Virus record (IMG/VR): IMGVR_UViG_3300032291_000700
Location: 1 to 37,122 of that record
Reading direction: 5' to 3' (one strand)
DNA: 37,122 nt
DNA from: a virus
The notes below the pieces were generated by a model. The model searched no databases and was not told where the DNA came from. It worked only from the letters and a program-made list of their open reading frames with translations. Below, piece after piece: positions 3,193 through 28,510 of the stretch. A program made the translations under genes and the position numbers. How positions within the stretch are numbered: the stretch's first letter is position 1; every line of letters begins with the position of its first letter.

Positions 3193-3906
3193 ATGGCCAC
3201 ATACACAGCTGGCGATCAGATCAATCGAGCCCTGCGTCTGCTGGGTGTTCTCGCCGAAGGTGAAACGCCTTCCGCCGCCATGTCTCAAGATGCTTTGACC
3301 GCGTTCGACCAAATGGTCGACAGCTGGAACACAGAGCGTCTGTCTGTCTTTTCCACCCAAGATCAAATCTTTACGTGGCCGGCCAGCACTATTAACCGCA
3401 CGCTGGGCCCATCGGGTGACTTTGTCGGCCTGCGCCCCGTTTTGCTTGATGATGCTACGTACTTCAAAGCGCCCAACGGCGTGTCGTACGGCATTAAAAT
3501 GATCAACCAGCAGCAGTACAACGGTATTGCTGTTAAGAATGTGACGTCCACCTACCCGCAAGTTATGTGGGTCAACATGACGTTTCCTGACATTGAGATA
3601 TATCTCTACCCTAAGCCTACGCAAGAGTTAGAGTTTCACTTTGTGTCGGTGGAAAAGCTAAGCCAGCCAGCCACATTGGTGACCGAGCTGCACTTTCCGC
3701 CAGGCTACATGCGCGCGTTTACGTACAACTTGGCCATGGAAATTGCGCCTGAGTACGGCATCGAGCCCAGTCCCCAAGTCCAACGCATTGCGATGACTTC
3801 CAAGCGCAACCTGAAGCGCATCAACAACCCAGATGACGTGATGGCAGTGCCGTACGCTTTGGTGGCCAACCGTCAACGATTCAACATCTACGCGGGTAAC
3901 TACTGA
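3193..3906 (+). CDS. Tail accessory factor, P22 gp4-like
   Basis: 237 residues. In P22, gp4 closes the portal after DNA packaging and forms the first ring of the tail machine. The N-terminus (AGDQINRALRLLGVLAEGET, residues 6-25) and the following QDALTAFDQMVDSWN segment are characteristic of the gp4-like packaged-DNA stabilisation family, which is mostly helical. It is longer than P22 gp4 (166). The order portal, scaffold, coat, gp4, gp10 is conserved here, which supports the call. It overlaps the next gene by one base (TGATGG). Confidence 0.8.
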   Translation: MATYTAGDQINRALRLLGVLAEGETPSAAMSQDALTAFDQMVDSWNTERLSVFSTQDQIFTWPASTINRTLGPSGDFVGLRPVLLDDATYFKAPNGVSYGIKMINQQQYNGIAVKNVTSTYPQVMWVNMTFPDIEIYLYPKPTQELEFHFVSVEKLSQPATLVTELHFPPGYMRAFTYNLAMEIAPEYGIEPSPQVQRIAMTSKRNLKRINNPDDVMAVPYALVANRQRFNIYAGNY

Positions 3907-5348
3907 TGGATTCCCCGATCCTTGGTTCTTCCTATGTGGCCCGCAGCGTCAACGCCGCGGACAACCGCATGGTCAACTTGTTTCCAGAGATCGTGCCAGA
4001 AGCTGGCAAAGAGCCAGCGTTTCTGTCGCGCTGCCCTGGGTTAAAGCGCAAGTCAGCCATTGGCAGCGGCCCCATCCGCGGGCTGTGGAAAGTCAACGAC
4101 ATCATGTACGCCGTGTCGGGCGATACGTTTTACAAGGTTGAGACATATGGCCGCACCCGCCTGAAGGGCACAGCTATTGGCACGGTGACCGGCACAGGCC
4201 CCGTGTCTATGTCTGACAACGGTACGCAAATTTTTATTGCGTGCAACCCTGACGGCTTTATCTACAACACAAGCACTGAGGTGTTTGCTGAAATTACCGA
4301 CCCCGACTTTGCGGGCGCGGTGACGGTTGGCTACATTGACGGCTATTTTGTGTTCAACGAGCCCAACAGCTCGCGTTTCTGGGTCACTGAACTACTTGAC
4401 GGTACGTCGGTAGAGCCGCTGGCTTTTGCAAGCGCTGAAGGCGATCCTGACAACTTGGTGTCGTTAGTTGTAGACCACCGAGAAGTCTGGCTGTTTGGCA
4501 CCAACTCGGTTGAGGTCTGGTACGACGCCGGCACCGCCAACTTCCCTCTCCAGCGCATCCAAGGCGCGTTTAACGAACTGGGCTGCATTGCGCCCTACTC
4601 TGTTGCCAAGATGGACAACAGCGTGTTCTGGCTAGGCGCGGATGCCCGTGGCCGCGGTATTGTTTATCGCACCAACGGCTACAAAGGCCAGCGCATATCT
4701 ACGCACGCCGTCGAGTGGCAAATCCAGCAGTACACGGACATTTCCGACGCGCTGGCGTATACCTACCAGCAAGACGGCCATACGTTTTACGTGCTGATCT
4801 TCCCTACGGCCAACACCACTTGGGTGTATGACGCGGCCACGCAGGCGTGGCATGAGCGCGCGGGCTGGGACAACGGCGAGTTCACTCGCCATCGCTCCAA
4901 CTGCCAAGTGGTCTACAACAATGAAATCATTGTGGGCGACTACGAGAACGGCAATCTGTACGCGTTTGACCTGACTGATTATTCAGACAACGGCGACATT
5001 CAAAAGTGGTTGCGCACATGGCGCGCGCTGCCCACGGGCACCAACAACCTCAAGCGCACATCGCAGCACACATTGCAGATTGATTGCGAGGCGGGCGTAG
5101 GTATTAACGATGGCCAAGGCAGCAACCCACAGATGATGTTGCGCTGGTCAGATGACGGCGGCCACACATGGTCCAACGAACATTGGATGTCGATGGGCAA
5201 GATTGGTGAGTATTACAACCGAGCGTTTGCCCGTCGCATGGGCATGACGCTGAAGCTGCGCGACCGCGTGTATGAGCTGTCAGGCACAGACCCCGTGAAG
5301 ATTGCAATCATGGGCGCGCAACTCAACGTGACGCCTACCAATGCTTGA
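3906..5348 (+). CDS. Tail accessory factor / packaged DNA stabilisation protein, P22 gp10-like
   Basis: 480 residues, nearly the length of P22 gp10 (472), which forms a ring below gp4 and plugs the tail. The N-terminus (DSPILGSSYVARSVNAADNR) followed by MVNLFPEIVPE and FLSRCPGLK is a typical gp10-family opening. The body carries repeated blade-like beta segments with Trp/Gly (for example REVWLFGTNSVEVWY, about 193-207, and TTWVYDAATQAWHE, about 304-317), as in a beta-propeller. ATG overlaps the gp4 stop and the gene end overlaps the next start by 8 bases. Confidence 0.85.
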   Translation: MDSPILGSSYVARSVNAADNRMVNLFPEIVPEAGKEPAFLSRCPGLKRKSAIGSGPIRGLWKVNDIMYAVSGDTFYKVETYGRTRLKGTAIGTVTGTGPVSMSDNGTQIFIACNPDGFIYNTSTEVFAEITDPDFAGAVTVGYIDGYFVFNEPNSSRFWVTELLDGTSVEPLAFASAEGDPDNLVSLVVDHREVWLFGTNSVEVWYDAGTANFPLQRIQGAFNELGCIAPYSVAKMDNSVFWLGADARGRGIVYRTNGYKGQRISTHAVEWQIQQYTDISDALAYTYQQDGHTFYVLIFPTANTTWVYDAATQAWHERAGWDNGEFTRHRSNCQVVYNNEIIVGDYENGNLYAFDLTDYSDNGDIQKWLRTWRALPTGTNNLKRTSQHTLQIDCEAGVGINDGQGSNPQMMLRWSDDGGHTWSNEHWMSMGKIGEYYNRAFARRMGMTLKLRDRVYELSGTDPVKIAIMGAQLNVTPTNA

Positions 5349-8264: not shown

Positions 8265-10961
8265 ATGGCAACACTTGAACAACTTAGCGCAGCGTTGGTC
8301 AAGGCGGACGCCGCCGGCAATGCCGCGGATGCCAAAGCACTTGCTGACGCTATTCGTCAAATGAAAGCCGCGCCTGTTGCAGGGCCAGCAACCGAACGAA
8401 AATTTGGTTTGGGCGACATTTTGTCTGCGCCGTTTGAGATGGGCGCTAATCTGGCGCAAAAGCCACGCGCTGAACAGGCGGCTTTTATTGCACCTACTGT
8501 TGAAGCGCTGGGTGCTGCTGGTGGCGGCGCAGTAGGATCAGTGGGCGGCCCGTTAGGTATGGTTGCGGGCGCAGGTACAGGTTACGCAGCCGCAAAAGAA
8601 TTAATGCGCTACGTATCTGGCGAAGCTAAACCTGAAACTTTACAGCAAGCTGCTGTCCGTCAGACTCAAAACGCGCTTGAAGGCTCGACAATGGAAGCGG
8701 GGGGCCGTGTTGTTGCAAATGCGCTTGGCGGCGCCATTAAATACGCAGGACCAAAAATTAGCAAAGCTGTAAGCGGTGTAGCCGATGTGCTCATGCCTTC
8801 TAGACTTAAAGTTACAAGTATTGCTAACGCGCTGGAAAACGATCCCGCACTGATGGCGCAAGTTAAAACTTTGCTTGAGCAGGGTAAGACCGTTGATGAA
8901 GCGGCAGCCATAACAGGCAGCACTGGCCTTGCTGCGTACGCGCAAAAAGTAAAAGGCGCGTCTAACACCACGCAACGCATGTACAACGAAATTGATGCTG
9001 CGCTAAAAGAAAGTCAGGCTAATAAACTTGCAACTGCCAGCCAAAACTTAAATGCTCTCAGTCAAAAAAATCTTCCTGTTGCTACTGCGTCGCCTACCGC
9101 ACCTCGCCGTGCAGTTAAGCAATCCCTCGCCGCTGAAGCTGCTGCGTTGAAAGGCAAGCAGTCTGCAATGACTAGCCAATTGACTGCTGAACAGCAGGCA
9201 GCCGAAGCCGCGCTTGCGGCGGAACGTCAAGCAATTGAAGGCAACATTTCAAACGTCAGTCAGCTAGAAACAGGCCGCGCGTTGGCTTTAGCCAATGAAG
9301 AAATTTTGAAGAATACGCAGAAAACCGTTACCGGCCCTGCATATCAGAAAGCGTTTGATGCCGCGCCTGACGCAACAATTGACTTGACCAATTTAGCCGG
9401 CGTCGCCAAAGAACAACGCGGGGAGTTACTTACTCAGCTTAAAGGTCTTGCACCTAATTCAGCAGCGTTGTTAGAACGCTACGGCCCTCGCGAGGTGGAG
9501 TCGATAGTTCAAGGTGTGCCGGTCAAGCAGACGGTCATGCCTGCACCCATTACGCTTGCAGAAGCTCACGCAATCAGACAGGCGATCAACATTGACCGCG
9601 CCGCACTTAAAGGGTCAAACGAAGCTGGCGCAAACATTACCCGCAGCCGTTTAAATGATTTGTATAAGTCAGTCAATGAAGCAATTGAGCGCGATGTTCC
9701 GCAAGAAGCGCAAGAGTTGTTTAAGAACGCTAACGATCTGTTTAAAGAACGCATTGTTGGCGTCTTCCGCACAGGTCAACCGTCTAATTTAACGCGCATT
9801 AGCACGCTAAACGAACCTATGCTCAAGCCTGGCGACATTGTGTCCAAAGCAATGGCCGACGAGGGCAGCACACTGCAGTTTCTTAAAGTGTTTAAGCAAG
9901 ACGCTGCGGCAACGCAAAACTTAAAAACTGGCGTTGAAGACTTGTATCGTCAACAAGTAATGGCCGGCGGCAAAGCAGCCACGCCAGAGGCGCACTCTAA
10001 GTTTGTGTTTGACAATGCCAAACAACTTGCTGCGCTAGATTCAGCTGGCTTGAACATGAGCAGCCGTTTAGATGAGATTGGCTCCCAAATCAAAGGCGTT
10101 ACTGAAGCCGAAAAAGCAGCTGCTGTTCAAGCTAAAGAAATTCCAACCAAAGTGGCGGCAGCGTTTAAGGCTGAAGATGAAGCGCTGAATCTGGCGTCAA
10201 GCACTTTGGGCTTTAAGCAAACCGACAAGCTGCGCAGCGCTGTCGTTAAAGACGCGGAAGTGGCTGGCCAAGCGTTGGCGCGAATGGACGCGCCCGCTAA
10301 GTCGTCATTGGCGCGCGGCGTTATGCAAGATGCAGGAAAAACCAGCGACCCATTGAAACACCTTGTTGACAACGAGCAAGGCATCATGCGAGTGCTTAAG
10401 GCAAATGACCCCAAAACTGCCAAAGCCACGTTTGAGGAAGCAAAAAATATTGCAGAGCTGACAAAAATTGTTGAAGAGACTGGCAACAAATTAGGCGTCA
10501 AAGCGCCTGTCAACGCTATGGTAACGCAGCAAAACATCAACAAACTGACGCAAGGCTTACCTGAAGTGCGCGCTGCCGTTGAGGAAGTGCAAACTCAAAT
10601 ACAAAATGCTGAAACTTTTAAGCGGTTGGCGGGGCAAGGCGAGGATAAAGTTTTGAAGCTGTTTAGTGCGGAAACAAAGCCTCACATGTTCCCCCTCAAC
10701 AAAGTCTGGGCTATTGCAAACATGGTCCTTACCAAACTTGAAGGTAAGATCGACAAGAAACTGGCTGTTGAGATTGCCAACGAATTGGCTAACTCAGCTA
10801 CCACTGCAGCTACGATTGGAAAAGCGCAGGCTAAGCAAGCAAGCGCAGGCACAACAAGTAAGGCGCTGGCTGAAGGCATTAAAAAAACGCCTCCTTTTGT
10901 GGCTGGCCAGCCTGTCAACGCATTGCGATTAGAATTAACCGGCATGGCCAACGAGGACTAA
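8265..10961 (+). CDS. Large ejection / internal virion protein (gp16 slot)
   Basis: 898 residues, clearly longer than P22 gp16 (609). After a charged N-terminus there is a Gly/Ala-rich hydrophobic hairpin (about 80-113, including GAAGGGAVGSVGGPLGMVAG) that could insert into membranes. The rest is a very long helical region rich in Ala/Glu/Lys/Gln, with coiled-coil-like parts at 285-325 and 610-760. No lytic transglycosylase or peptidase motif was seen. The third gene of the ejection set is expected to extend the DNA channel across the inner membrane; the extra length may mean a fused or enlarged channel domain. Confidence 0.65.
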   Translation: MATLEQLSAALVKADAAGNAADAKALADAIRQMKAAPVAGPATERKFGLGDILSAPFEMGANLAQKPRAEQAAFIAPTVEALGAAGGGAVGSVGGPLGMVAGAGTGYAAAKELMRYVSGEAKPETLQQAAVRQTQNALEGSTMEAGGRVVANALGGAIKYAGPKISKAVSGVADVLMPSRLKVTSIANALENDPALMAQVKTLLEQGKTVDEAAAITGSTGLAAYAQKVKGASNTTQRMYNEIDAALKESQANKLATASQNLNALSQKNLPVATASPTAPRRAVKQSLAAEAAALKGKQSAMTSQLTAEQQAAEAALAAERQAIEGNISNVSQLETGRALALANEEILKNTQKTVTGPAYQKAFDAAPDATIDLTNLAGVAKEQRGELLTQLKGLAPNSAALLERYGPREVESIVQGVPVKQTVMPAPITLAEAHAIRQAINIDRAALKGSNEAGANITRSRLNDLYKSVNEAIERDVPQEAQELFKNANDLFKERIVGVFRTGQPSNLTRISTLNEPMLKPGDIVSKAMADEGSTLQFLKVFKQDAAATQNLKTGVEDLYRQQVMAGGKAATPEAHSKFVFDNAKQLAALDSAGLNMSSRLDEIGSQIKGVTEAEKAAAVQAKEIPTKVAAAFKAEDEALNLASSTLGFKQTDKLRSAVVKDAEVAGQALARMDAPAKSSLARGVMQDAGKTSDPLKHLVDNEQGIMRVLKANDPKTAKATFEEAKNIAELTKIVEETGNKLGVKAPVNAMVTQQNINKLTQGLPEVRAAVEEVQTQIQNAETFKRLAGQGEDKVLKLFSAETKPHMFPLNKVWAIANMVLTKLEGKIDKKLAVEIANELANSATTAATIGKAQAKQASAGTTSKALAEGIKKTPPFVAGQPVNALRLELTGMANED

Positions 10962-15226: not shown

Positions 15227-15420
15227 TTGGCTTTCCTCATCTCCAACGGTATTTTGGTGACGCCGTGCACATAGCCGTAGGTTGGGTCAAGCTTGCGCTT
15301 CTTGGCCACATGCTTGGCCAGCGTCTCGGCTGCCTTGCGGTTGGCTTCAACTGTGCGAAAGTCTTTCATGAAGTTGGGCTCATGCGTCTTCATGTAGTCG
15401 GGATGGAACGCGTTAATCAA
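15223..15420 (-). CDS. Small basic protein, TTG start
   Basis: 65 residues from a TTG start at 15420, preceded by GGAGGACAACC, a strong ribosome binding site located inside the upstream gene. The next in-frame ATG (residue 10) has no such site. The protein is basic (KHVAKKRKLDPTYGYVHGVT). Overlaps of 8 bases upstream and ATGA downstream bind it to the operon. Function unknown. Confidence 0.55.
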   Translation of the reverse strand: MINAFHPDYMKTHEPNFMKDFRTVEANRKAAETLAKHVAKKRKLDPTYGYVHGVTKIPLEMRKAK

Positions 15421-15541
15421 GGTTGTCCTCCATGATGGCTAGTGCAGCCAAGTAGCCGAACAACAGGGCTGCTGTGACAATAACGCCCAGTCCCATCAAC
15501 GCGCATATCACCGCAATGTTTGCAACGTCTTCAAACACCAT
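15413..15541 (-). CDS. 42-residue membrane microprotein
   Basis: The ATG at 15541 is preceded by GGAGAAGAGCA. A single hydrophobic segment (VICALMGLGVIVTAALLFGY, about 10-29) is followed by a short acidic end (MEDNLD). It overlaps the upstream gene by 11 bases and the downstream TTG start by 8. Coding is supported by the ribosome binding site and its exact fit in the overlapping chain. Function unknown. Confidence 0.5.
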   Translation of the reverse strand: MVFEDVANIAVICALMGLGVIVTAALLFGYLAALAIMEDNLD

Positions 15542-15710
15542 TGCTCTTCTCCACATAGGCCGTCAGGCGTTTGACGCGGTCTTGGTGGTACTCCACCATA
15601 CGCTTGGTGTAGTCGAGCGCTGACTGGCTGCGCAACAACTCGCGCTTGGCTTCTTCCAGCTCACGGGCAGCCATGATGTCGGCGGTGGGTAAGACAAAAT
15701 ATTTGATCAT
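15531..15710 (-). CDS. Small charged helical protein
   Basis: 59 residues, starting in an ATGA overlap with the upstream gene. After IKYFVLPTADIMAARE the remainder is a heptad-like, strongly charged helix (about 15-55) and probably forms a coiled coil. Function unknown; one of a run of small helical proteins in leftward operon I. Confidence 0.5.
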   Translation of the reverse strand: MIKYFVLPTADIMAARELEEAKRELLRSQSALDYTKRMVEYHQDRVKRLTAYVEKSNGV

Positions 15711-15892
15711 TTGATTGCTTCCTTCATAAGTTCGATGCGCTCGCGGGCGGCGCGTAGGGTGGTGTAGCGCTGGTGCAGGCGCTCAAGGATGGTGATGCGC
15801 TTTGCGCCGTTGCGTTCAGCATCTAGCATCTCAAGCACTTCGGCTTCAGTCTTGCTGCTGAGGGTGTGGTTAATGCTTCGCCAAGTGCTCAA
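15707..15892 (-). CDS. Small helical protein, probable TTG start
   Basis: 61 residues from the TTG at 15892, which has GGAGCAAAAAA upstream; the frame stays open to a TTG at 15910 without a better site. It contains an acidic then basic helix (EAEVLEMLDAERNGAKRITI and ERLHQRYTTLRAARERIELM). It overlaps the upstream gene by 23 bases and the next by ATGA. Function unknown; the start is uncertain. Confidence 0.45.
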   Translation of the reverse strand: MSTWRSINHTLSSKTEAEVLEMLDAERNGAKRITILERLHQRYTTLRAARERIELMKEAIK

Positions 15893-16028
15893 TTTTTTGC
15901 TCCAGATCAAAAATGGTTCTAACTACGTTGCGAAAGTGACGCGCTGCTGCGTTGTACTGACGCTTGCGCATCGGTAGCTCAGCCTTCGCGGCTTTGAGTT
16001 TTTGTTTGTATAGATCAATTCGTTTCAC
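15870..16028 (-). CDS. Small basic helical protein, GTG start
   Basis: 52 residues from a GTG at 16028 preceded by AAGGAAAAAAC. A longer reading to 16100 would lie mostly over the upstream gene. The protein is rich in Lys/Arg (KQKLKAAKAELPMRKRQYNA) and ends with an acidic/amphipathic helix. Nucleic acid binding is possible from charge but unproven. Confidence 0.45.
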   Translation of the reverse strand: MKRIDLYKQKLKAAKAELPMRKRQYNAAARHFRNVVRTIFDLEQKIEHLAKH

Positions 16029-16197
16029 GTTTTTTCCTTCTTGCTGCACCTGTGTCAATGTCACGCATGGCCTGCTCCATGGTGTACTCTGCGTGCACAC
16101 GCATTGGGCCCCGCGGCCCTTTTACGTATTGCTTGCGTACCTTCTTAGGCTCTGGCGGTGTGATCCAGCTTTGCACTTTGGCCCATACTGTTTTCAT
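16015..16197 (-). CDS. Small basic protein, unknown
   Basis: 60 residues, starting in an ATGA overlap with the upstream gene. It is Lys/Arg/Pro rich (PEPKKVRKQYVKGPRGPMRV, about 15-34) and ends ARRKKRETN. Its coding strand overlies a GC hairpin with a T-run oriented for rightward transcripts (16106-16123). Function unknown. Confidence 0.5.
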   Translation of the reverse strand: MKTVWAKVQSWITPPEPKKVRKQYVKGPRGPMRVHAEYTMEQAMRDIDTGAARRKKRETN

Positions 16198-22291: not shown

Positions 22292-24577
22292 GTGGAGTTC
22301 TTAGAGTTTATCGCAAAATTGGCCCCCGAGGGCGAGACGCCGTTGATCGTGCGTCAAAAACCCAAATTAAAAGATGGCCAGTATGACTACCATGCCGACG
22401 GGGCCCTCAAGTGCACATGGCCCGCCATGCTGCCCACCGCGCGCATCAAAGACGACTGGGCCATCTATGGCAACACCGCGTCGTTCATTATCGATCGCTT
22501 TGTGGACGGCCACCCGTCGGCCAGCGCGGCCAACTGCGAGTATGTGCTGGTGATGGTGCTGGACGACGTGGGCACCGACAAGGCGCCTAACATTCCTGAC
22601 CTCAAGCCCACATGGGTGATGGAGACGTCCGAAGGGTCGTTCCAGTGGGGCTACGCCTTCAGCGAGCAGCCAACTAAAAAAGATTTCACCGCGGCCATCA
22701 AAGCCATTGCTGACGCTGGCTACACCGACCCTGGCGCGATCAACGCCGTGCGCAACTTCCGCATCCCTGGCTCGGTCAACTTAAAGCCTGGCCGTGATCT
22801 ATTTAGGTCGCGCCTGACTGAGTTCCACCCCGAGCGCGATTACACGCTAGATGAAATCTGCGACGCCTTGGGTGTCGTGCCCGCTGAATCGCACGAAGAG
22901 CTAAAGCCCATCCGCCTGTCTGACGACGGCGCTGACGACGTGCTGGCGTGGCTATCCGACCAAGGCATGGTGCTCACCCGCCCCAACCCGCAGGGCTGGG
23001 CAGGCATCATCTGCCCCAACAACGCCCAGCACAGCGACGGCAACCCCGAGGGCCGTTACATGGCCGCCAACCGCGCGTTTTGCTGCTTGCACGGCCATTG
23101 CGTCGACTTCGACAGCGCGACGTTCCTCGACTGGGTGGCCGAAAATGGCGGCCCCAAGCACGCGCCAGGGCTGCGCGAAGAGCTGCTCGCCGTGGCCATG
23201 GAGTCCGCGCTCAGTAAGCTCGCCCCGACGCCTGAATACCCCGACGTGGCCGCTCAGGTGATCGCCGAGGTGGAGCGCAAGGAACTAGGCCGCATCGAAC
23301 GCGACGGCTGGTATGAGCGTTTCGCATACCTGCAAGACGACGAAGCCTTTTTCGATTTGGCCGACCGCCGCGAGATTTCCCGATCGACTTTCAACGCCCT
23401 GTTCCGCCACATTAAATGCGTGTCGGTGCATAGCAGCAGCAAGACACCGCGCCGCATCGAGGCGTCGATTTGCTTTGATGAAAACCGCCAAGCCAAGGGC
23501 GCCAAGTCGCTGGTTGGCGTCACCTACGCTGCGGGCTCGGACGTGCTGGTGGCCCGTGACGGGCTGGTGTACGGCAACCGATGGAAGGACTCTCGCCCTG
23601 CGCCTGTGGCCGGCGATGTGGACATGTGGCTCAAGCACCTGCACCGCATGGTGCCCATTGAGTACGAGCGCGAGCACCTGCTCAACGTGATGGCCCATAA
23701 GGTCCAATTTCCCGCCCATAAGATCAACCACGCCGTGCTCATCGGTGGCCACCCAGGCTCGGGCAAAGACACCCTCATGGCGCCATTTTTTTGGGCCATC
23801 GGTGGCGACGCTAAGGCCAACTGTTCGCTAGTGCGTAACGAGGAACTGACCCAGCAGTGGGGCTATGCCCTTGAATGCGAGGTCATGGAGATCGCCGAGT
23901 TGCGCCAGTCCGACGCTAAAGATAGGAGGGCGCTTGAAAACACCCTCAAGCCCATCATCGCCGCCCCGCCTGAGCTGCTCACAGTCCAGCGTAAGGGCCT
24001 GCACCCCTACATGGCCCTGAACCGCGTGTTGGTGGTGGCGTTCTCAAACGAGCGCGCCGCGATTTCGATTCCGTCGGACGATCGCCGCTGGTTCTGCCTG
24101 TGGGCCGAGGCCGCCCGCATGCCCGAGGCCGACGCCGTGGCCCTGTGGAACTGGTACCAGCACCGCGGTGGCTTTGCTGCCGTGGCCGCGTACCTGTATG
24201 CCCGCGACGTTTCGGCGTTTAACCCAGGCGCCGCGCCGCCTATGACCGAAGCCAAAATGATCATGGTTGAGCAGGGCCGCAGCATGGGCGAGTCGTATTT
24301 GGTCGACCTGATCACGCGCCGTTTAGGTGATTTCAGCGAGGGCGTGGTGGCCGCGCCGTTCTACCAATTGTGCGACCGCCTGCAGGGCCAAGCAGCCCCA
24401 GGCGTAAAGCTGGTGCCTGCTGCGCTCATGCACGCGCTCAAAGAGGCCGGTTGGTTGGACTGTGGCCGTCTGGCGTCGCGCGAATATGGCACGAAAAAGC
24501 ACATATTTTGCGCGCCTGAGATGGCCGGCCTGAGTAAGTCTGAGCTGCGGCGCTTGGGGGAAAAAGTAAGCGCGTAA
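22292..24577 (+). CDS. RepB-like primase / SF3-like helicase fusion
   Basis: 761 residues from a GTG at 22292 with AAGGAGATACT upstream. The N-terminal part (about 45-190, with VLVMVLDDVGTD and AVRNFRIPGSVNLKPGRDLF) looks like a RepB-type archaeo-eukaryotic primase domain. A Cys/His region follows (ICPNNAQH and FCCLHGHCVDF, about 235-275). The C-terminal half has Walker A GGHPGSGKDT (about 484-493), an EVMEIAEL Walker-B-like strand (about 530) and the sensor region NRVLVVAFSNERAAI, as in phage/plasmid SF3-like helicases of the DUF5906 type. It probably primes and unwinds at the phage origin. Confidence 0.82.
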   Translation: MEFLEFIAKLAPEGETPLIVRQKPKLKDGQYDYHADGALKCTWPAMLPTARIKDDWAIYGNTASFIIDRFVDGHPSASAANCEYVLVMVLDDVGTDKAPNIPDLKPTWVMETSEGSFQWGYAFSEQPTKKDFTAAIKAIADAGYTDPGAINAVRNFRIPGSVNLKPGRDLFRSRLTEFHPERDYTLDEICDALGVVPAESHEELKPIRLSDDGADDVLAWLSDQGMVLTRPNPQGWAGIICPNNAQHSDGNPEGRYMAANRAFCCLHGHCVDFDSATFLDWVAENGGPKHAPGLREELLAVAMESALSKLAPTPEYPDVAAQVIAEVERKELGRIERDGWYERFAYLQDDEAFFDLADRREISRSTFNALFRHIKCVSVHSSSKTPRRIEASICFDENRQAKGAKSLVGVTYAAGSDVLVARDGLVYGNRWKDSRPAPVAGDVDMWLKHLHRMVPIEYEREHLLNVMAHKVQFPAHKINHAVLIGGHPGSGKDTLMAPFFWAIGGDAKANCSLVRNEELTQQWGYALECEVMEIAELRQSDAKDRRALENTLKPIIAAPPELLTVQRKGLHPYMALNRVLVVAFSNERAAISIPSDDRRWFCLWAEAARMPEADAVALWNWYQHRGGFAAVAAYLYARDVSAFNPGAAPPMTEAKMIMVEQGRSMGESYLVDLITRRLGDFSEGVVAAPFYQLCDRLQGQAAPGVKLVPAALMHALKEAGWLDCGRLASREYGTKKHIFCAPEMAGLSKSELRRLGEKVSA

Positions 24578-24688: not shown

Positions 24689-24742
24689 TCAAAGCCCCAG
24701 CAAGACGGCCAACAAGGCCGCGATTATGACGGCGATGATCAT
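24689..24742 (-). CDS. 17-residue hydrophobic microprotein
   Basis: MIIAVIIAALLAVLLGL, essentially one membrane helix with no charged residue. It starts in an ATGA overlap with the upstream gene, the same junction used throughout this operon, and a GAGGT-like site lies upstream. Coding is an inference from position and the fully hydrophobic content. Confidence 0.4.
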   Translation of the reverse strand: MIIAVIIAALLAVLLGL

Positions 24743-25062
24743 GCGAGCACCTCGCGAATGAATTGCCGGACGTGCGCAGGCACTTCGGCTTCAACGGCCA
24801 TTAACGCGCTGCGGAGCTTTTTATACTCTTCGTGCCATTGGTCGGCTTCGCGATTAGCTTCATGGTATGACACCCGCGCGGCTTCTAGTTCGTCGCGTAG
24901 GCCGTTGATTATGTCGTTTGCGTCATCTAGTTGCGCTTGCATGGCCACCTCATCGCCTAGCGCGTGATGCGCGTCATCTAAGCGCGCCAGCACGGCCGCG
25001 GTTTCGGTGTAGCCTTCGGCGTATGCTAGGCGCTCTTGTTCGGATGTGGTCAGATAGTGCAT
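24739..25062 (-). CDS. Coiled-coil protein, unknown
   Basis: 107 residues. The ATG at 25062 has GGAGGCTAAACC upstream, inside the previous gene. Nearly all of it is an acidic helix with heptad character (LDDANDIINGLRDELEAARV and HEEYKKLRSALMAVEAEVPA). It could be a dimeric scaffold or an inhibitor; no family is recognised. Confidence 0.6.
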   Translation of the reverse strand: MHYLTTSEQERLAYAEGYTETAAVLARLDDAHHALGDEVAMQAQLDDANDIINGLRDELEAARVSYHEANREADQWHEEYKKLRSALMAVEAEVPAHVRQFIREVLA

Positions 25063-25292
25063 GGTTTAGCCTCCATTAGGTAAAGTTCGCGGGTTTCGGG
25101 GTCTTGGGCAAATATTTCGGCAAATCGCCGGTTTATCTCGGCCACCACCCGCTCGGGTAACGTGACCAGATGCATGCTGCCCTCGCGGAATATCTCCGGC
25201 GGCGTGTTCGGCCCCATGTAGACGGCCTCGTATTTGTGCGGGCCGTCCGTGATGCGCTGCAGGCCCGCGATGCGTGAAAATTCGATTCTCAT
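25050..25292 (-). CDS. Small protein of accessory operon, unknown
   Basis: 80 residues from the ATG at 25292, which forms an ATGA overlap with the methyltransferase-like stop; a start 12 bases upstream at 25304 is possible. It has a mixed alpha/beta pattern (MRIEFSRIAGLQRITDGPHK, MHLVTLPERVVAEINRRFAE, about 40-60). Function unknown. Confidence 0.55.
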   Translation of the reverse strand: MRIEFSRIAGLQRITDGPHKYEAVYMGPNTPPEIFREGSMHLVTLPERVVAEINRRFAEIFAQDPETRELYLMEAKPCTI

Positions 25293-25885
25293 AAATTCCC
25301 CCATTGTGCGGCCATCGCGTCCGCGATGCCCTGATACGTTTCGCTTCTAATCTTCCAACGGTCCGCGCTCGGCGGTAGCCGATTTTGTCCACTATCGGTT
25401 TGGTTTGCCCATCGCTTGCGGCCGTCCACCATGCGCGGCGCGATCGTTTGCGTGGGTGTGAGTGGTGCCAGGTTTTTAAGCCACAGGCACGTCGCTTTGC
25501 TCGCATCGTGGCCAAATTGCCACGGCTGGATCGTTTGCGTGGGTTTGCGCACCTGTGTGCTAATGCACCCGATCGGATTCTCCAACGCGATCCGCTCAAT
25601 AGGCGCGGCCAACAGCATGCGCACAAAATCGAGCGCCTCGGCCGTTTGCTGCGCGCGCTCGGGCCGCCGTTTATTCCAATGTAGGCCGCTTGAACATAGA
25701 TAAGTGCACGGCGGATGTGCCACCATAAGGTCCCATCCGTCGCCGATCACGTCGCGGACGTCGCCCTGATAGTGTGGACCGGCCACCTCCGTGGCCAATA
25801 GGTCGCACGACATGGCGTCGTGGCCCGCTCGAATGAATGCATCGCGGACCGCGCCGGAATATTCGCATGCGATTAGTACTCTCAT
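25289..25885 (-). CDS. Short cytosine-DNA-methyltransferase-like protein
   Basis: 198 residues. The N-terminus ACEYSGAVRDAF (6-17) followed by SCDLLATE (26-33) resembles the SAM-binding motif I/II strands of C5 methyltransferases (E8, D28). HPPCTYL (57-63) corresponds to the catalytic PC loop (C60), and ENPIG (102-106) to the motif VI ENV. No sizeable target-recognition domain is present, and ENP replaces ENV. The family is common in phages as a putative DNA methyltransferase; activity and target are unproven. ATGA overlaps on both sides tie it to the accessory operon. Confidence 0.7.
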   Translation of the reverse strand: MRVLIACEYSGAVRDAFIRAGHDAMSCDLLATEVAGPHYQGDVRDVIGDGWDLMVAHPPCTYLCSSGLHWNKRRPERAQQTAEALDFVRMLLAAPIERIALENPIGCISTQVRKPTQTIQPWQFGHDASKATCLWLKNLAPLTPTQTIAPRMVDGRKRWANQTDSGQNRLPPSADRWKIRSETYQGIADAMAAQWGNL

Positions 25886-26037
25886 AGGTTCCCCATGTGT
25901 TCAAAATCGTCATCAAATACGGCCACATAAAAGCCACCGCGCGACGCGTGGACATGGTAGGTCCACCCGTGGTCATCCTCATAATTGAGCCGGTCCGCGA
26001 GCGCTTGGGCCTTGTCTTTTGTTTTAAAGTAGGTCAT
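25882..26037 (-). CDS. 51-residue protein, unknown
   Basis: It starts in an ATGA overlap with the upstream stop and ends in one with the methyltransferase-like start. The sequence opens MTYFKTKDKAQALADRLNYE and contains HGWTYHVHASRGGFYVAVFD, an alpha-beta-beta pattern with several aromatic residues and histidines. This resembles small single-domain phage proteins of unknown role. Confidence 0.55.
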   Translation of the reverse strand: MTYFKTKDKAQALADRLNYEDDHGWTYHVHASRGGFYVAVFDDDFEHMGNL

Positions 26038-26225
26038 CCGGTGGCCCTCGCGTGCACGGCCTGAGCGGCCGCGTGGTGCCCTAACATCTCGCGGATGATC
26101 GCGTGGCGCGCGGCCCTGTGGGCATGCGCGCGGGCGTCAGGCCGCATGCGGCCGTATGTGGCGCGGATCACGTCGCGCGCGCTTGCCCAAACGGGTTGTT
26201 TGAGTCTTAAATAAGTGCTAAACAT
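26034..26225 (-). CDS. Small Ala/Arg/His-rich protein, unknown
   Basis: 63 residues from the ATG at 26225 with GGAGGGAAA upstream; a TTG 18 bases earlier is less well placed. It is rich in Ala, Arg and His (DARAHAHRAARHAIIREMLG). It overlaps the upstream gene by 8 bases and the next by ATGA. Function unknown; nucleic acid binding is possible from the basic helix. Confidence 0.5.
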   Translation of the reverse strand: MFSTYLRLKQPVWASARDVIRATYGRMRPDARAHAHRAARHAIIREMLGHHAAAQAVHARATG

Positions 26226-26388
26226 TTTCCCTCCATTGTGCAAAAGTTATCGATTCAACCCACACGCGGGCGATCGCGCTATTTGTGGCCATGGATCGCA
26301 TGTCGCGGTATTCGATTGCATCCGCTAGGCTGAAAAAATCAAAAAATGTAGGGTTTCCGTTTTTCATTAGTACATGTAAACGTGTCAT
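26218..26388 (-). CDS. 56-residue protein, unknown
   Basis: It begins in an ATGA overlap with the upstream gene. The sequence opens MTRLHVLMKNGNPTFFDFFS and contains EYRDMRSMATNSAIARVWVE; a small alpha/beta fold is likely. No family is recognised. Coding is supported by overlap spacing on both sides. Confidence 0.5.
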   Translation of the reverse strand: MTRLHVLMKNGNPTFFDFFSLADAIEYRDMRSMATNSAIARVWVESITFAQWRENV

Positions 26389-26591
26389 TTAATCCGCTCC
26401 CCGTCGCGATACGCGACGCATGTGTCTAAATATTGGGTTTGAATGTCCGCGCGGTCATACCATGCGGGCGCGAGCCCATATTGGACCGCGTGGGCCGCGA
26501 GCCCGCGGTTTAACGCGTTGACCGCGTGGGCCACTGTGGAACCGTACGCCTCAAACGTGAAATTTTTAGTGCCTAGCGTGGCCTTGATCAT
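26385..26591 (-). CDS. 68-residue protein, unknown
   Basis: ATGA overlaps on both ends. The sequence opens MIKATLGTKNFTFEAYGSTV, followed by a helix (AHAVNALNRGLAAHAVQYGL, about 21-40) and ADIQTQYLDTCVAYRDGERI. A strand-strand-helix-strand pattern is possible, similar to small phage proteins that resemble ubiquitin-size domains. Function unknown. Confidence 0.55.
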   Translation of the reverse strand: MIKATLGTKNFTFEAYGSTVAHAVNALNRGLAAHAVQYGLAPAWYDRADIQTQYLDTCVAYRDGERIK

Positions 26592-26770
26592 TGGTTAACC
26601 TCCGCGCGGATGTAGTCAAAAAGAATAGTAGTTAAATCATTCCAGATGTCATTTTGCGAAAAGTATAGGCCGGCAAAATCGCCGGTTTTAACGCCTAATT
26701 CTTTCTGGATTTGGGCGATCGCCCTATTGGCCACAATTTGGGCCAAATCGGCCATTTGTTCATCAGTCAT
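26588..26770 (-). CDS. 60-residue acidic helical protein, unknown
   Basis: The sequence opens MTDEQMADLAQIVANRAIAQ, then IQKELGVKTGDFAGLYFSQN and an aromatic/acidic C-terminus. It is helical and acidic, 12 bases downstream of the GP88-like gene and overlapping the next start by ATGA. It could be a small regulator or a counter-defence mimic; this is speculation from size and charge only. Confidence 0.5.
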   Translation of the reverse strand: MTDEQMADLAQIVANRAIAQIQKELGVKTGDFAGLYFSQNDIWNDLTTILFDYIRAEVNQ

Positions 26771-26782
26771 TTTGAGCCCCTG

Positions 26783-27433
26783 TTAGTGCAATTCGTACGA
26801 TATGACCGCGTCAGTCCAACATGCGCGACATGTGCCACACGCGCCGGATTGATCGGGCGCGACGCATCGTTGGCCGATCGGCGTGGACGTGTGGACGTTG
26901 GACGCCGTGACGTTGGCCACGTTTTGGAGTGATGCCGGAATTTTGACCGGTTGATCGGGGTACATCGCGGACAATCGCACGATCAAGTTTTCAGGCAACG
27001 CGCCATGCTTTGCAATGTATTGTTTGACGATCGAATACTCGCGCGTCGGTAGCCAATGCATCGTGGCGGGCGTTAATTGTGCGACGCGGGCGATTTTCTC
27101 CAAATGTTGGAGGCTTTGCAAATCGCCTGAGTCGTGCCAACGGAAATATTCGTCGGTCCCGATTAGCGTGACCATGCCGTCAACCCAATGCGGGCCGTCT
27201 ATTGAATCGAGCCGCGCAAACTGAGCGGGTTTGATCGTGTTCGCGTAGGCGCGATAAAAACCGGCATCCGCGTAGCATTTTGAGCAAATCGAGCCCTTAA
27301 TTTGGGCCATTTTGTAGCCGGTTTGGCATGCCTCAGTCGGTAGGCTGTAGGATTTGCACGGCATCTTGCTGGTTTGCGTGAGAGTGCCACATGTGGCCAC
27401 GGCGTCGGATTTGCGCATCATGATCACTCTCAT
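26783..27433 (-). CDS. Cysteine-rich GP88-like phage protein
   Basis: 216 residues. Nine cysteines fall in two clusters: C15, C26, C36, C50, C53 (SICSKCYA) and C190, C199, C202, C205 (GACGTCRAC). Conserved-looking blocks are YANTIKPAQFARL, FRWHDSGDLQS (97-107) and MHWLPTREYS (125-134). This pattern matches the phage gene-product-88 family, whose cysteines suggest Fe-S or zinc binding. A radical-SAM-like role is sometimes inferred for related phage proteins but is unproven. The start at 27433 lies in an ATGA overlap with the upstream microprotein; an ATG 12 bases later is possible. Confidence 0.7.
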   Translation of the reverse strand: MRVIMMRKSDAVATCGTLTQTSKMPCKSYSLPTEACQTGYKMAQIKGSICSKCYADAGFYRAYANTIKPAQFARLDSIDGPHWVDGMVTLIGTDEYFRWHDSGDLQSLQHLEKIARVAQLTPATMHWLPTREYSIVKQYIAKHGALPENLIVRLSAMYPDQPVKIPASLQNVANVTASNVHTSTPIGQRCVAPDQSGACGTCRACWTDAVISYELH

Positions 27434-27537
27434 GATTGCACCAGCACGTCAAAATATGCCAGCATGCACGCGACGAAAACCGCGGCCACAGTTACCGCGG
27501 CGATAACGCGCGCGGCGAGAATTGCAAAATTGATCAT
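27430..27537 (-). CDS. 35-residue membrane microprotein
   Basis: It opens MINFAILAARVIAAVTVAAV and continues FVACMLAYF, so the whole frame is one long membrane helix with a short polar end. It sits directly ahead of, and overlaps by ATGA, the GP88-like gene. The upstream ribosome site is weak (GGTGTTTT). Function unknown. Confidence 0.45.
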   Translation of the reverse strand: MINFAILAARVIAAVTVAAVFVACMLAYFDVLVQS

Positions 27538-27574
27538 AAAACACCCTATTAATGAAACCGGCAAATTCCGGCCC

Positions 27575-27594
27575 AAAACCCCGCTCGCGAGGTT
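27575..27594 (-). terminator. Leaky intrinsic terminator inside operon II
   Basis: Read leftward: AACCTCG, loop CGAG, CGGGGTT with one G-T pair, then TT. It lies just after the first gene of the operon and before the rest, so it could make the first gene more abundant than those downstream. Confidence 0.55.
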
Positions 27595-27609
27595 TCAGGC
27601 TGAAATCTG

Positions 27610-27783
27610 TCAGTAATTCCACGCGATAAGGTTTAACGACTTAGCGAAGCGCTTAGCGTCCGTTTTGGAGTTGAAATAGTGCTGAGCCTGAACCGACTCG
27701 CCGGAAATGCTAGGCTGAGCGTGCACGACTAGTTCGAATTTAAAACCGGTGGTTTTGCGAGCGTTGAAAATTGAAGCGTACAT
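27610..27783 (-). CDS. Small first-gene protein of operon II, possible regulator
   Basis: 57 residues from the ATG at 27783 with GAAAGGCCAATA upstream. The frame is open to an ATG at 27882, which would give 90 residues and a nearly leaderless mRNA; the inner start is preferred because it has a ribosome site. It opens MYASIFNARKTTGFKFELVV, followed by SVQAQHYFNSKTDAKRFAKS and an aromatic end; an alpha/beta fold. Being alone before a terminator, it is probably the most expressed product of the operon. Function unknown. Confidence 0.55.
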   Translation of the reverse strand: MYASIFNARKTTGFKFELVVHAQPSISGESVQAQHYFNSKTDAKRFAKSLNLIAWNY

Positions 27784-27891
27784 TATTGGCCTTTCAGTTG
27801 ATTTGAGAATATTGTAAATGATTTCCTTGCACAAATAAGCGCATGCTGCAAATATTTGTAAGAGAATTTTTGACCCTCTCATATATATAGC

Positions 27892-27919: not shown

Positions 27920-28110
27920 GTTATTGATTTACAACGGATGCGGGAAACCCTATGTAAAACAATTCATTACAATATTGTGGGTGATGTTGGCGCGATGTTG
28001 GCTGTGGACGTGGGTGCAAAGTGCCTACGCTGCAAACCGCATGAAATATAAATAAATGCCTATTTGTTGGCTATGTTGGCTATTGATTTGTAATGTGTTT
28101 AGACTTTACT

Positions 28111-28136
28111 GTGAAACAATATATGTATTGTTCCAC
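28111..28136. promoter_or_regulatory. 26-bp imperfect palindrome, operator-like
   Basis: Outer arms GTG (28111-28113) and CAC (28134-28136) flank inner arms AACAATA (28115-28121) and TATTGTT (28126-28132) around TATG. Ten of the first eleven pairs match. AT-rich two-fold symmetry of this size is typical of binding sites for dimeric repressors or initiators. No repressor gene is recognised in the window. Confidence 0.55.
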
Positions 28137-28171
28137 GGTAGGGCCCCAGCGATTTAAAACGGGTGCCAAAA

Positions 28172-28268
28172 TAGCCAACATTGCCAACAAATGGCACCGA
28201 CGCAAAAAAGCCCGCGCGTGGTGTTGGCAATGTTGGCTACCAAAAACAAATAGCCAACATTGCCAACA
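28172..28268. repeat. Three-arm repeat allowing alternative 18-bp hairpins
   Basis: Arm A 28172-28189 and arm C 28251-28268 are identical (within a 23-bp direct repeat 28169-28191 / 28248-28270). Arm B 28222-28239, TGTTGGCAATGTTGGCTA, is their exact reverse complement. B can pair with A (loop 32) or C (loop 11), but not both. A 17/18 copy of arm B also lies at 28065-28082. Confidence 0.85.
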
Positions 28269-28477
28269 AACCAAGACCGCGCGGCCACCGACTAAAAACG
28301 CATGGCCAACATTGCCAACATTGCCAACATGCCGGACCGGCCGCTCGCATGCGACGATCGCGTGGCCATGGCCGACCGGCTACCAGGCGCCAAGCAAGCA
28401 AGATGCGTGCCATTTTGCAATCGACGGGGTGGGTAGGGCCGACGGCAAGGGTCCACAGCTACGGAGCGTTAGCAAAC

Positions 28478-28510
28478 AATTTTTATTTTTTAAATTTTTT
28501 GTATATACTT
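28478..28510 (+). promoter_or_regulatory. AT-rich tract with -10-like box before terminase genes
   Basis: Almost pure A/T from 28478 to 28507, with TATACT (28504-28509) placed as a -10 box for the rightward virion operon. No good -35 is seen at the right distance, so the promoter may need an activator. The tract could instead be the DNA-unwinding element of an origin next to the repeat array. Confidence 0.45.

Follow-up and report, generated by a model that had tools for sequence, protein, structure and literature searches.

In PICI origins, two iteron sets flank an AT-rich region (PMC6092414), and SaPI Rep recognises its iterons by the C-terminal domain (PMC7581432). The origin repeats of P4 are bound by a winged helix of the alpha protein (PMC4234260). 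In the RepA_N system of PLE, the DNA-binding domain and the origin iterons covary and modules are swapped, with only cognate pairs replicating (PMC8263062), and the iterons of geminivirus Rep are conserved in position and pattern, while their sequences differ between close relatives (PMC12548392).

The locus presented here belongs to an uncultured podophage-like virus, of which the whole IMG/VR virus record (37,122 nucleotides, hereafter the window) was analysed; the record encodes a P22-type portal, a terminase, PolA and a primase-helicase. Comparison with related sequences suggests that an iteron array of this record is very probably the phage replication origin, bound by the primase-helicase via a C-terminal winged helix. 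To our knowledge, it is rare for the origin of a phage to be recognised by its sequence alone.

An iteron array between the leftward operon and terS

Thirteen exact copies of GCCAACA/TGTTGGC are located within 345 bp (27985-28329), where ~0.09 are expected. TGTTGGC starts at 27985, 27996, 28065, 28074, 28222 and 28231 and GCCAACA at 28174, 28183, 28253, 28262, 28305, 28314 and 28323, giving the block order and spacing (- -) 69 (- -) 100 (+ +) 39 (- -) 22 (+ +) 43 (+ + +) (Table 1). No 345-bp window held more than three copies in 300 dinucleotide shuffles, and the best of all 7-mers reached at most 9 per window in 60 shuffles. The exact matches and the shuffles thus bear out the array noticed in a sequence-only reading of this DNA, including the exact 9-bp period in five of the six blocks, the first block having 11 bp. 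Elsewhere, that reading had noticed isolated copies only; the whole record has 26 copies versus 9.6 expected, the 13 outside the array being close to background, and no second comparable array was found elsewhere in the record. The orientation, described as alternating, is not simply so; the order given above recurs in relatives. Cumulative GC skew, for which an extreme at 28 kb had been considered, showed no clear signal there and was uninformative. Nor is the array region clearly the only large non-coding region of the window; positions 15275-16193, between convergent genes, are also without a long ORF.

The core between the inner blocks measures ~95-105 bp in the window and in relatives, contains a near-palindrome (28107-28140) and CAGCGATTTAAAA (28147-28159), and has, in the window, inverted arms of 23 nt at its ends; CAGCGATTT within it is common to close relatives. 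Among 127 relatives, the segment between the last minus and the first plus block has a mean AT content of 65%, compared with 50% for the region. An AT-rich unwinding tract had been proposed at 28478-28510, which is not the sole candidate; with its AT content and inverted arms, the core is the better one. The tract at 28478-28510 lies in an element (GGGTAGGGCCGA ... ACGGAG ... AACAATTTTTTT) that recurs before terS in many clades with differing words and could be a second unwinding element, the terS promoter or pac.

On its other side, the array is adjoined by a highly variable leftward operon (24739-27882, minus strand) of small genes, including one for a GP88-family protein (26783-27433). The content of this operon differs even among near-identical phages.

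Table 1 Features of the primase-helicase gene and the array region (positions in the window)
Feature	Position	Strand	Remark
Primase-helicase gene, 761 aa, proposed origin-binding initiator	22292..24577	+	PHROG primase 7.6e-20
Predicted C-terminal winged-helix domain, aa 665-761	24284..24574	+	AF2 topology H-E-H-H-E-E-H
Specificity patch 1 (putative), wing hairpin, aa 724-738, CGRLASREYGTKKHI	24461..24505	+	tracks the iteron word
Specificity patch 2 (putative), loop and start of last helix, aa 743-751	24518..24544	+	mean r 0.437
Iteron block 1, TGTTGGC x2	27985..28002	-	11-bp step; place conserved in relatives
Iteron block 2, TGTTGGC x2	28065..28080	-	9-bp step
AT-rich core, candidate unwinding element	28081..28173		between inverted inner blocks, 63% AT
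Iteron block 3, GCCAACA x2	28174..28189	+	exact matches
Iteron block 4, TGTTGGC x2	28222..28237	-	exact matches
Iteron block 5, GCCAACA x2	28253..28268	+	exact matches
Iteron block 6, GCCAACA x3	28305..28329	+	exact matches
Word-independent element, GGGTAGGGCCGA ... AACAATTTTTATTTTTTAAATTTTTT	28426..28510		adjoins array; before TerS in many relatives
TerS gene, 148 aa	28541..28987	+	neighbour downstream of array

The array and its word in related phages

The loci of relatives were retrieved by the primase-helicase and TerL, by the array, and then by the primases of two relatives, and their arrays were found as exact 7-mers with 9-bp steps, a 9-mer motif finder being too noisy. In about 100 related IMG/VR contigs an array likewise precedes the gene of the small terminase, a position that the sequence-only reading had suggested examining; the block layout is similar, and the orientation pattern and block distances recur. 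What differs is the word; among those observed are GCCAACA, GTCCACA, GACCCAA, GACTACA, GACCACA, GACCCAC, GACTCAC, GCCCACA, GCCTACA and GGCACAC, words being called from a list of ten so that rare ones are missed. Conserved neighbours with no array, named in the sequence-only reading as a refuting case, at first seemed to be present in two relatives, L006 and L008, yet both have it in another word, which in L006 (TerS 94.6% and primase 90% identical) is GTCCACA.

Two pairs of phages differ in their words. Between L120 and L121, identity is 100% for both TerS and TerL and 97.6% for the primases, with GCCAACA versus GTCCACA, and L065 and L079 have 100% identical TerS and TerL and 93% identical primases, with TGACCCA versus GTCCACA. 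When the arrays of both pairs are aligned, different words occupy homologous places, the right flank and part of the spacer sequence are identical, and the flanks of the switched words are clade-typical. Because the word varies among phages whose TerS and TerL are 100% identical, TerS is excluded as the word reader, and we rejected it as a candidate; no TerS column tracks the word either (see below). A pac site recognised by TerS would suit the position of the array just upstream of terS and the P22-like portal and terminase genes in the window, and packaging had been regarded as an equally possible role, but in view of these pairs we consider it extremely improbable for the array itself. The word-independent element at 28426-28510 could still be pac.

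Further repeats were observed in other loci. MW202483.1 (L229) has eleven GTTTACA copies at the equivalent place (10227-10577), and its primase is 51% identical, with a different wing (MCFAPELSTKRHI). In DSL-LC05 (OR003940.1, L230), TGACCCA/CCCACTGGG-like repeats precede TerS (3500-4300), and the primase has an apparently different C-terminus with a KKK motif in a strand-like stretch. Neither GenBank record has an origin annotated at the array, nor does the paper on DSL-LC05 speak of iterons or repeats. L138, L152, L167, L228 and others possess, beside the iterons, a second, clade-specific array upstream of TerS made up of CACTAAC/GTTAGTG units that alternate in orientation and follow each other at steps of 9-15 bp. 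A 25-bp triple pattern matched many 9-bp-period arrays in viral contigs, with no shown link to the lineage and some possibly representing coding repeats; these matches were left out of the evidence. Primase-helicase relatives among the genome_contigs (L374, L376, L377) fall into bins of Rhodoferax and of a beta proteobacterium MAG, a weak hint of Burkholderiales as hosts.

Residues of the primase-helicase that track the word

The primase-helicase matches Pfam DUF5906 above and RepB_primase below the cut-off. Its full-length AF2 model has the C-terminal region of NrS-1 PrimPol (6k9c) as best match (E 3e-10) and also matches AEP folds (the S-2L PrimPol AEP domain and RSF1010 RepB') and, weakly, SaPI5 Rep (7ola, E 2e-3). 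Sequence searches of the PDB, using a profile of the C-terminus as well as the whole protein, returned nothing meaningful. For aa 601-761, AF2 predicts H665-675, E685-687, H690-698, H709-718, E722-727, E736-740 and H749-760, the order of elements of a winged helix, with pLDDT mostly 83-94 in the winged-helix model. The structural matches of this C-terminal domain are nearly all winged helices, albeit moderate ones (best Z 5.9); the P4 origin-binding domain was not among the matches listed, which excludes nothing.

We searched for protein columns in which close relatives differ when their words differ and agree when they have the same word, judging significance by permutation of the word labels inside clades. 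The signal of the primase-helicase was confined to aa 724-751, where 12 of the 22 variable columns lay above the 99% permutation maximum, compared with one of 697 before residue 724. The mean r was 0.055 for residues 701-723, 0.364 for 724-738, 0.012 for 739-742, 0.437 for 743-751 and 0.081 for 752-761, and the top residues of patch 1 were A728 (r 0.71), G733 (0.62) and L727 (0.58). In the AF2 model, the word-linked residues map to the E-E hairpin (the wing) and to the beginning of the last helix. No word-linked columns were found in TerS, TerL, PolA, the nucleotidyltransferase-like protein or the commoner families of the interval and operon. As far as the compared sequences tell, no gene other than that of the primase-helicase was found to have residues that follow the iteron word, and the word reader would be localised to about two dozen residues.

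These results bear on two further explanations. An operator cluster for the divergent operons, as the sequence-only reading had also envisaged, with the repressor or activator encoded in the leftward operon, would agree with the position of the array between divergent transcription units and with a weak promoter-like match that overlaps iteron block 2. Yet the operon is strongly variable, no family in it is universal and none of those tested is word-linked, and no other gene of the interval was found to be both common and word-linked, the word-linked columns occurring in the primase patch instead. We consequently rejected an operon-encoded repressor as the reader and regard separate operators as highly unlikely. 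The second explanation is linkage only, in which the 3′ end of the primase gene, the operon and the array would be exchanged as one block and the patch would have no contact with the word. Divergence of the primase gene in L120/L121 and L065/L079 is indeed higher towards its 3′ end than in its 5′ part, as after block exchange. Linkage would, however, spread the signal to residues 640-723 and 752-761, whereas it sets in at 724, is interrupted by a drop at 739-742, reappears at 743-751 and declines at 752-761. These sharp edges argue against linkage alone, as does the same pairing of wing and word in separate clades and at new loci, leaving it a very small probability.

Wing rule and word switching

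The residues at aa 726-728 of the wing correspond to the word in a simple manner: RLA is found with GCCAACA, RLT with GACTACA, and LVH or LIH with GGCACAC, while RLK together with D733 (RLK..D) is found with GTCCACA, and RVA together with S, G or A at position 730 with GACCCAA. In 82 new loci, which are de-duplicated yet phylogenetically dependent, RLK..D was accompanied by GTCCACA in 47/47 cases, RLA by GCCAACA in 5/5 and RVA[GA] by GACCCAA in 25/25. The nearest neighbour predicted the word in 77 of these loci when chosen by the tail and in 72 when chosen by the protein body; the two disagreed in 12 loci, the tail being right in 8 and the body in 3. Identical wing-word pairs occur in separate clades (RLA-GCCAACA in six, RLK-GTCCACA in five), and all 37 sister pairs with the same word share the wing key, compared with a differing key in six of the eight pairs with different words (Fisher 3e-6). 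Exceptions to the wing rule are L051 and L060, with an RLA wing and arrays of GACCCACA/GCCTACA, and L132, with an RLA wing and GCCTACA; the RIK..D wing was found with three words. Some of the exceptions may be due to patch 2.

On the tree of aa 1-690, the word requires at least ~34 changes. In L255 (5553-6112), a GACCCAA array runs directly into half of a GTCCACA array, the right one (++ -- ++ +++), and the wing is of the GACCCAA type. This double array is probably a snapshot of a switch, with what looks like the relic of an earlier specificity beside the current one. Since the switched pairs show this higher divergence at the 3′ end of the primase gene, the exchange of larger blocks is a likely switching route, and words probably switch when related phages swap alleles of the array and the wing.

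Discussion

Among the three readings offered from the sequence alone, the covariation strongly supports that of an iteron origin to which the primase-helicase binds; packaging through TerS finds no support, and operators for a separate repressor are disfavoured. Because the layout matches the origin plan of PICIs, the C-terminal reading by Rep and P4 alpha, we propose a course of docking, loading, melting and priming, in which physical binding, melting, priming and the role of the recognition helix are what we infer. The primase-helicase would bind each 7-bp iteron by its C-terminal winged-helix domain, in which the variable letters would be read by the wing (724-738) together with the beginning of the last helix (743-751), the conserved putative recognition helix (709-718) probably reading the common part (TGT...). 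Iteron blocks on either side of the AT-rich core would assemble helicase rings, the core would melt, the fused primase would start synthesis and the phage PolA would take over.

Several observations speak against the origin reading: the exceptions to the wing rule; the GC skew, which shows nothing at 28 kb; the distance of ~3.4 kb between origin and gene, past an opposing operon and unlike PICI and SaPI; the array of DSL-LC05, which occurs with an apparently different primase C-terminus; and the moderate structural match to winged helices (Z < 6). It is also conceivable that the primase-helicase binds the array mainly to regulate the flanking operons, the true origin lying elsewhere, as the array spans the divergent promoter region. 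We consider this quite improbable, given that an AT-rich core between inverted iteron sets matches known origins and that the record has no comparable array elsewhere.

As an iteron origin paired with an initiator, the proposed origin is of an ordinary kind; what is unusual is the degree, with many concerted switches in one phage lineage. It provides a natural lock-and-key series for starting DNA copying, in which the word and a small patch of the enzyme have repeatedly changed in concert. Covariation lets the protein and the DNA point to each other as partners here, with about ten natural specificities and the residues that change with them, so that a recognition code for the wing of winged helices becomes directly testable, for example with duplexes containing GCCAACATTGCCAACA versus GTCCACATTGTCCACA. 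Also testable is how a multi-site origin changes all its sites and its reader without dying midway. Somewhat speculatively, wings and iteron words might constitute replication-compatibility types that switch repeatedly under selection, e.g., by origin-reading parasites, satellites or defence proteins, much as PLE origins switch when attacked by Odn, a possibility that we would rate below even chances. If true, the lineage would hold a readable natural code for winged-helix wings, and half-replaced arrays such as that of L255 would be captured steps.

Several described systems share traits with this one. The NrS-1 primase-polymerase is the best full-length structural match, limited to the C-terminal helicase region. 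Geminiviruses likewise keep the iteron layout with differing letters, but their Rep is unrelated and belongs to circular ssDNA plant viruses. The PLE of V. cholerae has the covariation of initiator and iterons in common with our lineage; its RepA_N initiator, however, is unrelated, two groups are found there versus about ten words here, and the PLE origin is attacked by the phage nuclease Odn, whereas no such enemy is known for the present lineage. Satellite phage P4 alpha resembles the protein presented here as a fused primase-helicase with a C-terminal winged helix (here predicted by AF2), but the P4 primase is of the TOPRIM type, and the N-terminal fold here matches AEP (S-2L PrimPol, RepB'). 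The SaPI/PICI origins (SaPIbov1, SaPI5, E. coli PICIs) are similar in that blocks 1-2 and 3-6 flank the AT-rich core at 28081-28173 and in that an initiator helicase would read the iterons by its C-terminal domain, which in our case is deduced from covariation alone (aa 724-751). They differ in having the origin directly 3′ of rep, whereas here the gene ends at 24577 and the array starts at 27985, with opposing ORFs between. Moreover, they are satellites without virion genes of their own, compared with a tailed phage with portal and terminase large subunit, in which many words occur within one lineage. The PICI-like origin layout would thereby be extended to a widespread freshwater (lake) phage lineage.
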